Shown here: positions 10,852 through 42,014 of the stretch, piece after piece
Numbering within the stretch: position 1 is the stretch's first letter
How the letters are laid out: the number at the start of each line of letters is the position of its first letter
Source of the DNA: Vulcanimicrobiia bacterium
GTDB lineage: Bacteria; Vulcanimicrobiota; Vulcanimicrobiia; Eremiobacterales; Eremiobacteraceae
DNA length: 54,686 bases
Reading direction: 5' to 3'
Assembly (NCBI GenBank): GCA_025450855.1
Contig: JANWLL010000156.1
Location: forward strand, 1-54,686
The notes under the pieces: model-generated
Seen by the model: the letters and a program-made list of their open reading frames with translations, nothing else
Database searches by the model: none
What the model was told of the DNA's origin: nothing
Translations under genes and position numbers: made by a program

Positions 10852-11169
10852 CTAGTGGCCTGTGTCGGACTGTTCGGCCTGCAGCAGCTCTTGACGAGCC
10901 TGATTGAGCAGGTCGAGCGCCTTCAGGCGGTGGCCCGCGTAATCGTGCTGGTCGTGTTGTAGCTCGTCGATGACGTGTTCGAGATGCTTGCGGATCTCGT
11001 GGATGTTATGATTGCTGGCCGCGCCGTTGCGGCGATGCGTGCGAGGCTGCATCGTCGCGGCAGGCGTGGGTGTCGGTACCACCGGGACCGGTGCGCCAAG
11101 CGCAGCCGATACCGCCGCGATCGACGCGCCGAGACCGGCAGCCGTCGCGAGAAATGCCTTGCGTTCCAT
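10852..11169 (-). CDS. Secreted protein with one DYGG-type helical repeat
   Basis: A 105-residue exported protein: signal or anchor (residues 2-27), Pro-rich linker, then one roughly 49-residue helical unit at 51-99. The unit has the pattern S-N-x-x-I-x-x-I-R-x-H-L-E-x-x-I-D-x-L then DYAGHR (76-81) and K-A-L-x-L-L-N-Q-A-R-Q-E-L. The same unit occurs four times in the protein encoded at 40794-41837. GAGGAG upstream of the ATG supports the start. It lies 28 bp downstream of the DUF1501 gene and is probably the third gene of the DUF1800-DUF1501 operon. Function unknown; two short helices joined by a DYGG turn are predicted. Confidence 0.75.
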   Translation of the reverse strand: MERKAFLATAAGLGASIAAVSAALGAPVPVVPTPTPAATMQPRTHRRNGAASNHNIHEIRKHLEHVIDELQHDQHDYAGHRLKALDLLNQARQELLQAEQSDTGH

Positions 11170-11197: not shown

Positions 11198-12421
11198 CTA
11201 GATGAAGTTCAACGACGTGAACGAGTCGCCGAGCACCATGCTCGCAGGCACATCGAGCCAGCCTTCGAGCACGGTGGCATAGACCGACCGGAAGTCGGTG
11301 TGCCACTTGAGGTTGCCGTAGTCAAGGTCGGTGAGGCTCGGGTGGTCGCCGTACACCCCGCCTTTCACTCCTCCCCCGACGACGAACATGGGGGCCGCCG
11401 TTCCGTGGTCGGTGCCCCGGTTCGCGTTTTCCTCGACGCGCCGTCCGAACTCGGAGAACGTCATCGTCAGAACGCGGTCGTCAGCGTTGTGCGCCGCTAG
11501 ATCGTCGTAGAACGCTTTCAGACCGTCTCCGAACTGCTCGAGCAAAGCGTCCTGTCGCGGGCGCTGCGCCGCGTGTGTGTCGAACGATCCGATGCTGACG
11601 TAGAAGACTTTCGTGCCGAGATCCGAGTTGATGATCGCGGACACGAGGTTGAGACCCTGGGCGAATGGCGTTTTCGGATAGGCGACGGCCGGCTTGTAAC
11701 CGGCGACCAAGTGCGGCAGTTTCGACGACGCGGCCCGCGCGTCGCGTTCGACCTCTTGGACGAGCTGCAGATACGGGCTGTCGAACGGATAGCGATCGCC
11801 GTCGCCCATGAGGATGCGATCGGCCTGCGCCTGTTCGTCGGCGCGCCCGTTGAAGCGGAAGCCTCGCAGGTCACCGATCGCCGGCACGTCGGTCTTGTCC
11901 GCGACGAGCATCTTCGGCAGCAGCGGTCCGATCGCCACGCCCTTGAACAAGTTGTCCGCCGGCAAGCCGGCCTTGTCGAGGTAGCGGCCTGCCCAGCCGG
12001 TCGTATCGTACGACTCGGGCGCTGCGGTCTGCCAGATCTCGGTGCCGCGGAAATGCGACAACACGTAATTCGGGTAGTGGACGCCCTGCAGAACCGCGAC
12101 GCGCTGGCGGTCGTAGAGCGCCTTGAGCGACGCGAGCTTCGGGTTCATACCGATGGACGAGTCGATCGCGAGCACGTCCGACTGCGCGACGTTGATCGTC
12201 GGCCGGACATTGTAGTACGCGGGATCGCCGTGCGGCACGATCGTGTTGAGGCCGTCGTTGCCGCCCTGAAGGTTGACGACGACCAAGCAGCGGTTTGCCA
12301 CCGCTCCCGCTTTCGTCACTTGCGACGCGGCGCGCGCGGCACGCGCGAAGATCGAATCGACCGCAAGCGCGCCGCCGAACGCCCCGATGCCCTGGACGAT
12401 GAACTGTCTTCTGCTGCTCAT
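11198..12421 (-). CDS. DUF1501 family exported protein
   Basis: A 407-residue protein starting at ATG 12421 with a twin-arginine-like signal (SSRRQF at 2-7, then a hydrophobic segment ending ARAA). The DUF1501 body shows VVVNLQGGNDGLNTIVP, LSHFRGTEIWQTA, YVSIGSFDTHA, MTFSEFGRRVEEN and RGTDHGTAAPMFVVGG, the metal-ligand-like segments of this alkaline-phosphatase-fold family. It is 13 bp downstream of a DUF1800 gene, the usual partner. The pair is common in Planctomycetes, Acidobacteria and related phyla, and its biochemical role is unknown. Tat export implies cytoplasmic folding, possibly with a metal cofactor. Confidence 0.88.
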   Translation of the reverse strand: MSSRRQFIVQGIGAFGGALAVDSIFARAARAASQVTKAGAVANRCLVVVNLQGGNDGLNTIVPHGDPAYYNVRPTINVAQSDVLAIDSSIGMNPKLASLKALYDRQRVAVLQGVHYPNYVLSHFRGTEIWQTAAPESYDTTGWAGRYLDKAGLPADNLFKGVAIGPLLPKMLVADKTDVPAIGDLRGFRFNGRADEQAQADRILMGDGDRYPFDSPYLQLVQEVERDARAASSKLPHLVAGYKPAVAYPKTPFAQGLNLVSAIINSDLGTKVFYVSIGSFDTHAAQRPRQDALLEQFGDGLKAFYDDLAAHNADDRVLTMTFSEFGRRVEENANRGTDHGTAAPMFVVGGGVKGGVYGDHPSLTDLDYGNLKWHTDFRSVYATVLEGWLDVPASMVLGDSFTSLNFI

Positions 12422-12434
12422 ACCATCGTGCCGT

Positions 12435-13880
12435 TCATTCCAGTTGATATGCCGGAAGCGCCATCGCAAGGCTCATCGCTCCCCGCACCTTCTCATCGAT
12501 GTTCTCGCCATTGAGCTCGACCGGGTTGCCGACGCCGTCCGTCGTGAGGAAGCCGACTATCGATTGACGCTGCTCGTCCGTGACGTCGCTTTGCACGGTC
12601 AGATCGAGCACGCGAGCGGCGACCGCCGAAGCATCGGTCTGCGAGACGCCGGCTATCCACGCGAGCGGACCTGCCATCCCGGGCATCGCCTGCATCTGCG
12701 TGACCGGAGACGCCGCGCGGAACGAGACCAGCTGGTTGAGGAAATTGAGCCGCGCAAGGATCGTGCCTTGATTGAGCCATTGCGATCCGCCTGGCCAACC
12801 CGCCACGTTCGGGGGCCGCATGAGCACCTGGTCCATCCCATTCATCGCGCCGATGACGCGCGGCGTCGACGTCGTCACGCCGATGGTGCGGAGCGCGCCG
12901 ACGACGAGGTCGACCGGGCTCTTGACGATGCTCCGGTACGCGCGGTCGGAATAGAAGACGTTCGAGCGGAGCAGCGTGTCGAGCAGCGCAGCGACATCGT
13001 ACTTCGCGTCAGCAAAGCGCCCGGCGGTCGCATCGACGAGCTCCTGCTCGGGATCGTCGTAGACGAAGTTGCGCAAGAACTTGCGCGCCATGAACTGCGC
13101 CGTCGCCGGCTGACCCATGATGACGTCGATGACGTCGTCGCCCGCGAACGCGCCGGTGTGCCCGAGGAACGTCTTCGAACCGGCGTCGTGGAAGCGAGCG
13201 ACGAAGCTCGAGCTCGCGCCGTCGCGCGGCACGATCCAGCCGGTGAAGGCCCGCGCGCTCTCGCGGACGTCTTGCTCGGTGTAGTTGCCGACACCCATGG
13301 AGAACAGCTCCATGAGCTCGCGCGCGAAGTTCTCGTTCGGATGCTGGCTGCGGTTCTGGTTGCCGTTGAGGTAGAGGAGCATGGCAGGATCGCGCGCGAC
13401 TTGATGCGTCAGGTATGCGTAGTTCCCGAGCGCGTTGGCGCGGAACAGCCGGTTCTGCACGACCATCATCGCCGGCGTGATGCCGCCCTGCACCCCGCTC
13501 GTGAAGTGGTTGTGCCAGAAGTAGGTCATCCGCTCGATGAGCGGATTCGGTGTCTGGAGCATACGATCGAGCCACCAAGACACCGCGCGGAGATATGCGT
13601 CGCGCCGCTGCTCGGGCGGCGCCATCGGAAGATACGTGAGATCGCCTTGGGGTGAGGACGGCAGCGTGTCGGGCCGCGGGTCGAGGAGACCGTCGACTGC
13701 AGCGTTCATGCCGGCGCTTGCGGCAGCGCCGATCTCGGCCGGCGAGCCCCCGAATCCCGCGCGTCTGAGGAGGTGAGCGGCGAGTCGGGGACTCCACGGC
13801 CCGCGATACGGCAGCAGCGCGCTCGATGCGTCGACGCTGCCCCTTGGTCTGAATTGGTCGTTCTGCGGCTGATCAATCAT
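12435..13880 (-). CDS. DUF1800 family protein
   Basis: A 481-residue protein with full DUF1800 signatures: AAHLLRRAGFGGSP near the N-terminus, ERMTYFWHNHFTSG, LYLNGNQNRSQHPNENFARELMELFSMG and YTEQDVRESARAFTGW. No classical signal peptide is visible at the ATG (13880). It is transcribed first, before DUF1501, and is probably co-exported or associated with that protein. The family occurs with DUF1501 in many genomes; proposed links to surface polysaccharide or sulfatase-rich metabolism are not tested. Confidence 0.9.
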   Translation of the reverse strand: MIDQPQNDQFRPRGSVDASSALLPYRGPWSPRLAAHLLRRAGFGGSPAEIGAAASAGMNAAVDGLLDPRPDTLPSSPQGDLTYLPMAPPEQRRDAYLRAVSWWLDRMLQTPNPLIERMTYFWHNHFTSGVQGGITPAMMVVQNRLFRANALGNYAYLTHQVARDPAMLLYLNGNQNRSQHPNENFARELMELFSMGVGNYTEQDVRESARAFTGWIVPRDGASSSFVARFHDAGSKTFLGHTGAFAGDDVIDVIMGQPATAQFMARKFLRNFVYDDPEQELVDATAGRFADAKYDVAALLDTLLRSNVFYSDRAYRSIVKSPVDLVVGALRTIGVTTSTPRVIGAMNGMDQVLMRPPNVAGWPGGSQWLNQGTILARLNFLNQLVSFRAASPVTQMQAMPGMAGPLAWIAGVSQTDASAVAARVLDLTVQSDVTDEQRQSIVGFLTTDGVGNPVELNGENIDEKVRGAMSLAMALPAYQLE

Positions 13881-18723: not shown

Positions 18724-18745
18724 GCGCTCTTACGAGAGATAAGGG

Positions 18746-23564: not shown

Positions 23565-23701
23565 GGGAGCGGTCGAGATTCATCTCGACCGCCGCGGTCT
23601 CGCCCGAGTGAGAAAGGGAGCGGTCGAGATTCATCTCGACCGCCGCGGTCTCGCCTGAGTGAGAAAGGGAGCGGTCGAGATTCATCTCGACCGCCGCGGT
23701 C
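23565..23701. repeat. Tandem GCGGTCGAG palindromes, 51-bp period (copies B1-B3)
   Basis: Three copies of GGGAGCGGTCGAGA-TTCA-TCTCGACCGCCGCGGTCT, starting near 23566, 23617 and 23668, spaced exactly 51 bp apart by TCGCCYGAGTGAGAAA. They lie between the convergent rimP and threonine dehydratase-like genes. The period is a multiple of three, which creates a false repetitive ORF. Each unit can form a 10-bp stem with a TTCA loop. Confidence 0.92.
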
Positions 23702-24673
23702 TTACACGGCGCCGATCAGTTCTGCGAACTTGGCGAGATCGATGTTCCCGCCCGACACGACCGCCACGATGGGGCCGGTGCCCGCCTTGCCGGAAAGCGC
23801 TGCGGCGACCGGAAGCGCGCCCGCTCCTTCGGCTACGACGCGCGAGCGCTCCGCGAGCATCCGCATCGCTCGCTTCACTTCGTCGAGCGTCACGACGATC
23901 GATCCGTCGACGACGTCCTTCATCCGATCCCACATCCGCGGGAAGATGCTCTTTCCGCCCGCGCCGTCGACGAAGGTCGCTTGCCAGCGGCCGAACTTCA
24001 TGGGCGCTTTCGCCGCGAACGATGCGGCGCCGGGCGCAGCGGTCTCGGGTTCGGCGCCGAGCACGCGGACGCGTTTCGAACGAGCTTTGATGCCCGAGGC
24101 GATGCCGGAGATGAGCCCGCCGCCGCCGATCGCGGCGACGACCGCGGAGACGTCGGGAAGGTCTTCAACGATCTCCAAGCCGATCGTCGCGTTGCCCGCG
24201 ACGAAGTCGTCGTCGTCGAACGGATGGATGAACTCACCGCGGACGCCCGGGAATTCGCGCTTCTCCATCGCTTCCCAACACGAGTCGAACGACGCTTTGA
24301 CGAGCCGGGCGCCGAGCGCTTGCATGCGCTCGACTTTCGTGTCGGGTGCGGTGTCGATCGTGACGACGGTGCACGGCACGCGCGCCTGACGCGCCGCGTA
24401 GGCGACGCCCTGGCCGGCGTTGCCGGCGCTGATCGTCCAAACGCCTTCCGCGCGACGATCGGCGGGAAGCATCGCGACTGCGTTCGCAGCTCCGCGAAGC
24501 TTGAACGAATTCGTCGGCTGGAGATTTTCGAGCTTCAAATAGATCTCGGGCTTGGGAACGCCGTGGTCGAGCCGGATGAGCGGCGTGCGGATGACCGTGC
24601 CCTTGATACGCTCGCGGGCCGCTTCGATCGCCTCGATAGATATAGGACGTATTTCAGGAAGCACTTGTTGCAT
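23702..24673 (-). CDS. Threonine/serine dehydratase-like PLP enzyme
   Basis: A 323-residue fold-type-II PLP enzyme of the threonine dehydratase/serine racemase group. The Schiff-base Lys is K58 in TNSFKLRGA. The phosphate-binding Gly loop is AIGGGGLISGIASG near residue 180. The C-terminal SGGNID segment is present. It is short and lacks the regulatory ACT domain of biosynthetic IlvA, so it resembles catabolic threonine/serine dehydratases or serine racemases, and the reaction (ammonia-lyase or racemase) remains open. The start is ATG 24673 with the family N-terminus; the upstream extension overlaps the thioredoxin-like gene. Its stop abuts the palindromic repeats. Confidence 0.88.
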   Translation of the reverse strand: MQQVLPEIRPISIEAIEAARERIKGTVIRTPLIRLDHGVPKPEIYLKLENLQPTNSFKLRGAANAVAMLPADRRAEGVWTISAGNAGQGVAYAARQARVPCTVVTIDTAPDTKVERMQALGARLVKASFDSCWEAMEKREFPGVRGEFIHPFDDDDFVAGNATIGLEIVEDLPDVSAVVAAIGGGGLISGIASGIKARSKRVRVLGAEPETAAPGAASFAAKAPMKFGRWQATFVDGAGGKSIFPRMWDRMKDVVDGSIVVTLDEVKRAMRMLAERSRVVAEGAGALPVAAALSGKAGTGPIVAVVSGGNIDLAKFAELIGAV

Positions 24674-40504: not shown

Positions 40505-40515
40505 TATGAAGGGGA

Positions 40516-40539
40516 GCGGTCGAGATGAATCTCGACCGC
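40516..40539. repeat. GCGGTCGAG palindrome (copy E)
   Basis: GCGGTCGAGA, loop TGAA, TCTCGACCGC, a perfect 10-bp stem, 12 bp after the DDAH-like gene stop. Preceded by GGGGA. Confidence 0.85.
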
Positions 40540-40640: not shown

Positions 40641-40713
40641 GCGATCGAGCTGAAGCTCGACCGCTCCCAGCTTTTAGGCAAGGCCGCGGCGGTCGACATG
40701 AATCTCGACCGCT
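40641..40713. repeat. GCGGTCGAG palindromes in tandem, 49-bp period (copies F and G)
   Basis: Two units sharing AGGCAAGGCCGCGGCG before the stem, 49 bp apart. F: GCGATCGAGC-TGAA-GCTCGACCGC (40641-40664; one A-C mismatch). G: GCGGTCGACA-TGAA-TCTCGACCGC (40690-40713; one mismatch). Both decayed relative to other copies. The rest of the gene-free stretch 40505-40793 shows no protein feature. Confidence 0.82.
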
Positions 40714-40733
40714 CCATCCTCCATCAAAGAAAG

Positions 40734-40762
40734 AGCGGCCGACCATCATGGTCGGCCGCTCG
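40734..40762 (-). terminator. Terminator after the DYGG four-repeat gene
   Basis: GAGCGGCCGACCA, loop TCA, TGGTCGGCCGCTC, a perfect 13-bp stem. Reading minus it is followed by TTTCTTTGATGG, and the minus-strand gene stops at 40794. Its sequence differs from the GCGGTCGAG palindromes. Confidence 0.75.
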
Positions 40763-40793: not shown

Positions 40794-41837
40794 TTAGCGC
40801 TGGAACTGGAGCGCTTGGTCGATCTGGGTGCGTGCCGACTGCATCGCCTCCATCGCCTTGACCCGGAAGCCGCCGTAGTCGTGAGCGTCTCTGCTCAGCG
40901 AGTCGATCGCCTGCTCGAGGTTCTGGCGCGCGTTCACGAGACTCTGGTTGCTCTGATGCTGGCCTGCATGGCCCGTCGACGTGTTGCCCATCGTCACCGG
41001 CGAGACCGGCGCGACCGGCGCCGTGTTCTGGACTCGCGCCGTACCCGGGTGCGCCTTGTCGAAGGCGAGCGCCTGGGCGATGTCGCTGTTCGCGGTCTGC
41101 AGGTCGTTGATCGCGGTGACGCGGTGTCCGCCGTAGTCGTTGTTGTCGCTCTGCAGGTTCGAGATCGCGGTGTTGACGTGCTCGTTGACGAAACGCAGGT
41201 TGGAGTTGCTCACACCCTCGCCCGTGCCGCCGTTGCGGACGCCGGGATTGTGGATGAAGTCGACCGCCGCGTCAAGCTCCTGGCGAGCCTGTTGCAGCTT
41301 CTCCATCGCGCGCGCTTTGTAGCCGCCGTAGTCGGTGCGATCCTGGTTGAGCGCATCGATCGCCGCTTCGACGTGGCTGCGGATGTTCATGATGTTCTGG
41401 GTACTGCCACGCTGGTTGCGGTTGTCGTTGTTGTCGCCGTTGCCGTTGCCGCCGTTCGACGGGACCACAGGCACCGGGTTGACGGCGGTGTTGGTCAGCG
41501 TCACCGGAACCGGGCTGCCGTTGCCGCCGCCGTTGCGACCACCGCGAGCGCCAAGCGCCTGATCGAGGAACTGCCGCGCGACACCGAGGTCATCGCGAGC
41601 CGATTCCTTGTGGCCGCCGTAGTCGCTGGCATCGTGCTGCAGGCCGTCGATCGCTATCTCGATGTGCCGGCGCGCGAGGCGGATGCTCTCGTTGCTCTGC
41701 TGCTGATTCCGTTTTTGGACTTGCGGGGGCGGCGAGGCGACCGGTCGCGGCGCGACTGGCATCGCCATCGCGGTCCCGGCGCTCACGACGACCGCTGCGA
41801 GCGTCGCCGCTGTCACCATCATCTTCATTTGATACAT
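40794..41837 (-). CDS. Secreted protein with four DYGG-type helical repeats
   Basis: A 347-residue exported protein: signal peptide (residues 1-26), Pro/Gln linker, then four repeats of about 48 residues (about 48-95, 145-192, 210-257, 296-343). Each has R-x-x-[IV]-x-x-A-I-x-x-L-x-x-D-x-x-DYGG-[HYF]-[KR]-x-x-A-x-x-x-L-x-x-A-x-x-x-[IL]. The DYGG turns are at 72-75, 169-172, 234-237 and 320-323. Linkers are Gly/Asn-rich (especially 99-145) or Pro-rich. AGGGAGAG just upstream of ATG 41837 sets the start. Paralogue of the one-repeat gene at 10852-11169. Two short helices per repeat are predicted; the role is unknown, possibly a periplasmic or surface scaffold. Confidence 0.78.
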   Translation of the reverse strand: MYQMKMMVTAATLAAVVVSAGTAMAMPVAPRPVASPPPQVQKRNQQQSNESIRLARRHIEIAIDGLQHDASDYGGHKESARDDLGVARQFLDQALGARGGRNGGGNGSPVPVTLTNTAVNPVPVVPSNGGNGNGDNNDNRNQRGSTQNIMNIRSHVEAAIDALNQDRTDYGGYKARAMEKLQQARQELDAAVDFIHNPGVRNGGTGEGVSNSNLRFVNEHVNTAISNLQSDNNDYGGHRVTAINDLQTANSDIAQALAFDKAHPGTARVQNTAPVAPVSPVTMGNTSTGHAGQHQSNQSLVNARQNLEQAIDSLSRDAHDYGGFRVKAMEAMQSARTQIDQALQFQR

Positions 41838-42014
41838 TCTCTCCCTGGCAATTCTGCCGATGATTGCGGGGAGTGGTCTCACAGACGGACTCACTGCCCT
41901 TCGTGGGTTTCAACGACGCCACGGCCGCAAAGGTGATGGTGCCCGATGAGAGACGGGTTAATTCCATACGCGATACTACGTCCCGCTAGGGTATACCGCC
42001 CGGAAAGCGGCGGC
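41838..42014. other. Intergenic region between DYGG gene and S9 peptidase
   Basis: A 177-bp gap on the minus strand. It contains a small hairpin, GAGTGGTCT-CAC-AGACGGACTC (41871-41892), and must hold the promoter of the DYGG gene, but no confident -35/-10 pair was seen. Confidence 0.4.

Follow-up and report, generated by a model that had tools for sequence, protein, structure and literature searches.

DYGG proteins of the window

The window analysed here, 54,686 nucleotides of a Vulcanimicrobiia genome (contig JANWLL010000156.1), contains two genes whose products carry a unit of ~50 residues with the turn DYGG or DYAG (Table 1). One product has four such units and the other has one, at the coordinates that a sequence-only reading of this DNA had given, and we read the turns in both open reading frames as it had described them, DYGG in four units and DYAG in the fifth. 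The number of units thus stands, while its unit length of about 48 residues gives way to ~50. The open reading frame of the four-unit protein spans 40794-41894 on the minus strand, with a likely ATG at 41837; its linkers measure 46, 14 and 35 residues, and the residue after G-G is H, Y, H and F in successive units. A hydrophobic signal-like stretch, recognized by eye, opens both proteins, and from the look of these N-termini both are probably exported, as had been proposed.

The four-unit gene has an orthologue with identical neighbours in genome G001, and the two products are identical at 172 of 204 positions in the units and 93 of 114 in the linkers (8 gapped columns). A perfect 14-bp inverted repeat just past the gene is its probable terminator. 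The single-unit gene starts 28 bp past the stop codon of the DUF1501 gene and has a ribosome-binding-like GAGAGGAGA upstream.

Table 1. Genes, units and other features of the window
Feature	Position	Strand	Remark
Gene of four-unit exported DYGG protein	40794..41837	-	347 aa from ATG at 41837
Signal-like N-terminus of four-unit protein	41763..41837	-	Sec type, by eye from sequence
Unit 1	41544..41696	-	Four-unit protein; turn DYGGHK
Unit 2	41256..41405	-	Four-unit protein; turn DYGGYK
Unit 3	41058..41210	-	Four-unit protein; turn DYGGHR
Unit 4	40800..40952	-	Four-unit protein; turn DYGGFR
Perfect 14-bp inverted repeat	40733..40761	.	Just past four-unit gene
Gene of single-unit protein	10852..11169	-	Third in DUF1800-DUF1501 cluster
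N-terminal signal of single-unit protein	11092..11169	-	MERKAFL...; Tat-like, R-K not R-R
Single unit	10864..11016	-	Single-unit protein; turn DYAGHR
DUF1501 protein (PF07394)	11198..12469	-	SRRQF Tat-type signal
DUF1800 protein (PF08811)	12435..13880	-	

An unnamed module spread through the phylum

Used as the query of a plain protein search across the genome, the four-unit protein recovered the single-unit gene (E 3.5e-15) and a third DYGG gene on contig C115 (E 4e-30). Since this search found the other two genes independently of any profile, the likeness of the units goes beyond chance. The third gene adds four units, and the genome therefore holds nine. A profile built from these nine (A1) detected units at E <= 1e-3 in 40 of 101 genomes (the window's own and 100 relatives), and at E <= 1e-4 in 44 of the 149 genomes of the phylum Candidatus Eremiobacterota. 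Together with the DKGGHR relatives in other phyla described below, this shows that the repeats are not confined to one genome.

No named domain had been recognized in these proteins, and we found none. Neither whole window protein matched a Pfam or NCBIfam model above threshold; the nine units searched against Pfam, and 118 units against Pfam and NCBIfam, gave sub-threshold matches only; and PDB sequence searches with protein and with profiles were empty or returned nothing significant. A tblastn search with a DY unit gave zero matches among plasmids and phages, and in the open-access literature the motif strings DYGGHR and KGGHR led to no description of the family. The DYGG unit is a real, unnamed, small exported two-helix module, part of a protein family that neither Pfam nor NCBIfam models in the versions searched and that has members in at least six phylum-level groups.

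A branch of a wider hairpin family

The weakest A1 matches in Eremiobacterota carry the turn DKGGHR. We aligned such DK-branch units separately (A2) and compared the two alignments with hhalign, which matched them over the whole hairpin (46 columns, probability 96.7%, E 3.5e-10); in reciprocal hmmsearch, A1 and A2 also retrieve each other's members. By these comparisons the DYGG units share ancestry with the small exported proteins of a broader DKGGHR family, also unnamed. The A2 scan of the genome collection gave 29 loci, in Eremiobacterota, Mycobacterium, Mycolicibacterium, Acidobacteria, a cyanobacterium, a planctomycete (Anammoxibacter), Alphaproteobacteria (Rhizobium, Sphingomonas, Rhodovastum and others) and a record titled only Proteobacteria. 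In phylum samples the wider family is patchy; counting the seed genome each time, it occurs in 1 of 299 genomes for the phylum to which the alphaproteobacterial genome belongs, 9 of 199 for the acidobacterial, 2 of 246 for the actinobacterial, 5 of 244 for the cyanobacterial and 2 of 246 for the planctomycete phylum. The nearest annotated plasmid members, in Vitreoscilla and Methylocystis, are each labelled 'hypothetical protein', with no DUF1501 annotated next to either.

DKGGHR proteins share with the DYGG units the hairpin length, the G-G-H-R that opens helix 2 and the Ala heptads, as well as the architecture of a signal peptide plus one unit. They differ in having K in place of Y and A in place of D35, and they almost always have one unit; proteins with two occur in some Acidobacteria and in a single genome from the actinobacterial phylum. 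Conversely, K39 occurs in 0 of 84 DY-branch units, which have Y/F instead. By their sequences, then, the DY units are a sister branch of DKGGHR, outside the DK branch proper, and what had been taken for a stand-alone repeat family is one branch of a wider, mostly single-hairpin family. Some of the proteins counted in the phylum samples have the turns VFGGHR, NFGGHK or DFGGHR, so that the residue before G-G may be Y, F or K. This third variant, [VND]FGGH[RK], occurs on the same hairpin at four loci of the cyanobacterial and planctomycete phyla (L158, L159, L160 and L163).

Anatomy and predicted fold of the unit

We collected 124 units; L049, L046 and the single unit of the window were at first left out, the latter was restored in a longer form as row one, and L088, L048, L034 and L044 were removed by hand, giving an alignment of 118 rows (A4). 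Residue numbers follow A4, in which the unit begins at 14. Among the 84 DY-branch units, D35 is found in 82, D38 in 82, Y39 in 83, G41 in 84 and Ala46 in 83; residue 42 is His in 64, Tyr in 13 and Phe in 7, and residue 43 is Arg in 76 and Lys in 8. Among the 34 DK-branch units, A35 is found in 30, D or N38 in 34 (N in 14), K39 in 34, H42 in 33 and R43 in 34. Over family-level distances the turn signature is kept while the remaining sequence drifts.

With the 118-row alignment AlphaFold predicts a two-helix hairpin (mean pLDDT 85.6, core blocks 96-98), the helical structure that the sequence-only reading had proposed checking for. The predicted helices cover 7-33 and 39-65, which places D38-Y39-G-G-H-R at the beginning of helix 2. 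On a helical wheel, Y39, Ala46, 50 and 57 point at the hydrophobic core, and residue 42 lines up with Ala46, Ala53 and Ala60 in a stripe of small residues along its side. In this model we infer that the turn residues would serve in packing and capping. A Foldseek search with the unit model returned no structure at E <= 0.001, and in Foldseek and VIA-align comparisons only common hairpins appeared, with no known fold standing out.

D64 is present in 37 of 64 His units versus 1 of 20 others (Fisher test, p 1.9e-5). Allowing for relatedness left 3 independent pairs on supported branches, which showed no trend, and we rejected the idea that residue 42 and the acidic residue 64 are functionally coupled.

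Unit number and alternation

The DYGG profile found 70 ORFs, of which 51 carry a single unit, 11 carry two and 8 carry four; none has three. The 8 four-unit proteins represent 6 genomes and about 4 independent lineages. In all of them the residue that follows the G-G or x-G of the turn is His, Tyr/Phe, His and Tyr/Phe in successive units, and the linkers run long-short-long (26-49, 5-17 and 22-35 residues). This alternation, together with the linker pattern, suggests that the units work in pairs. The eleven two-unit proteins are His-His in 11 of 11, and therefore two units can co-occur without alternation. We rejected a solenoid, since the linkers vary and reach 49 residues; the units are beads on linkers.

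In a tree of 74 units (DY units scoring below 55 were excluded), 1 change splits odd from even units. Without the His/Tyr column 2 changes are required, the odd/even split no longer corresponds to a supported single clade, and the first units of the window's four-unit protein and its orthologue group with even ones. Within G007, unit 1 and unit 3 are mutually nearest, as are unit 2 and unit 4 (support 98/84 and 98/86), the kinship expected if whole pairs had been copied. The AlphaFold model of the four-unit protein is poor (pLDDT 53.6), and for this reason no packing between units was seen.

One chromosomal place in family f2 holds both one-unit (L119, L121, L122) and two-unit forms (L118, L120, L123, L125). 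Throughout L118-L126 the DYGG gene is fixed there between a PPDK-like gene and genes for HD-domain, DnaG and sigma-70 proteins.

The DUF1800-DUF1501 cluster and export signals

In the window genome, whose DUF1501 gene abuts or overlaps DUF1800, and in G001, G003-G008, G010, G011 and G012, genes for DUF1800, DUF1501 and then the DYGG protein follow one another on a single strand. All 11 clusters examined have the DYGG gene on the same strand, 26-154 bp from DUF1501, and in all 11 the third product begins with MER[KRQ]xF[LF]. DUF1501 was found in 13 of the 14 genomes of the window genome's family, and the third gene in 12 of these 13, with G002 as the twelfth. The G002 gene (L190, 1164-1592 of G002:C96) encodes a protein that starts with MERKHFL and keeps the hairpin pattern, and has lost the DYGG turn. 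In G009 DUF1800-DUF1501 is present and the 3 kb past DUF1501 contain no DYGG gene, and outside family f1 DYGG genes were not near DUF1501. A widespread pair thereby gains a candidate third partner in one bacterial family. DUF1800/DUF1501 pairs are known to be co-operonic. PMC5122149 reports that DUF1501 and DUF1800 are linked in operons with chitin synthase, proposes a connection of the pairs with the chitin synthases of bacteria and describes a twin-arginine motif in DUF1501 proteins; its available text does not mention a DYGG third gene.

Where the RRxF[LI] signal has its two arginines, the single-unit cluster proteins have RR in 2 of 11, RK in 8 and RQ in 1. The Tat motif is absent from the four-unit protein of the window, and TatC is encoded in the window genome. 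By eye, canonical RR signals are present in five DK-branch proteins; the count covered 104 proteins, and L028, L076 and L079 were dropped because their RR precedes the probable start.

G007 also encodes an exported phosphoesterase (PF04185) fused through a Pro/Ser-rich linker to a DYGG-like unit at the C-terminus, probably accompanied by another, degenerate unit (L048, 3-1136 of G007:C166). Relatives of this enzyme in 61 genomes did not cover the fused part, and the fusion was seen in 1 genome only. DUF1501 and PF04185 belong, we presume, to one alkaline-phosphatase-like clan; a PDB search with DUF1501 found nothing.

A hairpin that may pair

The reading that we favour, at a probability of about 0.5, joins two proposals: the unit would be a self-pairing exported hairpin, and also a partner of DUF1501-type proteins. 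Each unit would fold independently, as helix 1, a five-residue turn and helix 2 starting from the Tyr of DYGG, and two hairpins would lie side by side in a four-helix bundle. Single-unit proteins would pair as homodimers; two-unit proteins would have one pair built in and four-unit proteins two, the members of each pair being specialized in the latter as a His unit and a Tyr/Phe unit. The D-x-x-D-Y-x-G-[HYF]-[RK] turn would serve mainly to cap one end of the bundle and to pack it. We hold less firmly that larger exported proteins have the bundle as a small partner; the cluster protein might then serve DUF1501 as a subunit or escort, possibly Tat-exported alongside it, and the free four-unit proteins would be multivalent versions. 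The family would be a simple natural example of how a hairpin can evolve, first single, then paired and then as a doubled pair. Tentatively, we also put forward a broader claim, possible at best, of a phylum-spanning hairpin superfamily of obligate pairs that in Eremiobacterota was doubled into four-unit proteins and became a Tat-exported third component of DUF1800-DUF1501; if true, the four-unit proteins there hold asymmetric His/aromatic pairs.

Rop and designed hairpin dimers (1nkd, 1rpo, 6dma, 5j10) are two-helix hairpins of equal size, and form four-helix dimers. They align with the unit model at a TMq of about 0.65-0.79 in the better rows (Rop entries in Foldseek, TM 0.65-0.76 with E >= 1.7). 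With E > 1 and low identity, this is a common shape that does not imply kinship, and Rop is cytoplasmic and RNA-binding.

The acidic and aromatic turn had previously been proposed as a binding site. In a rival reading of this kind D35, D38, Y39, H42 and R43 would form a site for a metal or anion, and proteins with several units would be multivalent periplasmic ligand binders, much as SmbP binds metals. The near-invariance of these residues in the DY branch (R or K43 in 84 of 84, besides the counts above) speaks for such a site, the Tat signals of some members would suit a cofactor, and the best-repeated Pfam match, though weak, is SMBP, the small metal-binding protein family (6 of 118 units, best E 0.004). 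However, the DK branch has A35, K39 and often N38, His42 gives way to Tyr/Phe in every second unit of the four-unit proteins, and the G002 cluster member lacks the motif. Because key residues vary between branches and one member has lost the motif altogether, a ligand site is unsupported; the case for it is weak, and we consider it unlikely.

The periplasmic protein SmbP (PF16785, PDB 3u8v) does resemble the DYGG proteins in being small, exported and helical, with G-H near the presumed turn, Ala heptads and, by sequence, two similar halves per protein. It differs in being His-rich and metal-binding (PMC7137794), whereas a DYGG unit has one conserved His that is replaced in half of the units of four-unit proteins. 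The sequence relation is not significant. The best SMBP match, from a DK-branch unit, scored 17.8 bits against a curated cut-off of 29, and membership was rejected; the Pfam search listed SMBP for neither window protein, and hhalign to SmbP gave a probability of 2.9% or less. Against 60 column-shuffled controls each, A4 scored 16.8 (best control 14.2) and A2 scored 11.2 (best control 14.5).

The units might instead be passive spacers or cell-envelope beads, kept for their fold and partnerless, with the DUF1501 neighbourhood a relic of an old shared transcription unit. The housekeeping surroundings of the family f2 gene, linkers rich in Pro/Asn/Gly and the about equal conservation of units and linkers between the four-unit orthologues all suit spacers. 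Yet spacers would hardly be expected to show pair-specific His/aromatic alternation, to hold the turn signature at family-level distances while the rest drifts, or to retain the cluster arrangement and signal motif in 12 genomes, and we doubt this explanation. A peptide-binding hairpin of the TPR or MIT type seems very unlikely: weak PDB profile matches to the MIT domains of spastin and Vps4 (E 0.15-0.96) and matches of 4 of 118 units to Pfam MIT hint at it, but every match is non-significant (among the 118 units, MIT best E 0.029 and TPR_11 0.023, short of the cut-off, with none listed for the window proteins) and no solenoid is predicted. An MIT domain is built of three helices, and the repeats of a TPR array stack with no long linkers between them.

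The window also has an interspersed palindromic repeat, GCGGTCGAGATGAATCTCGACCGC with variants (9 matches versus 0.19 expected), at 18745, 23565-23717, 40512-40539, 40641-40715 and 44050, with tandem spacings of 51 bp and 48 bp. These palindromes look REP- or terminator-like.
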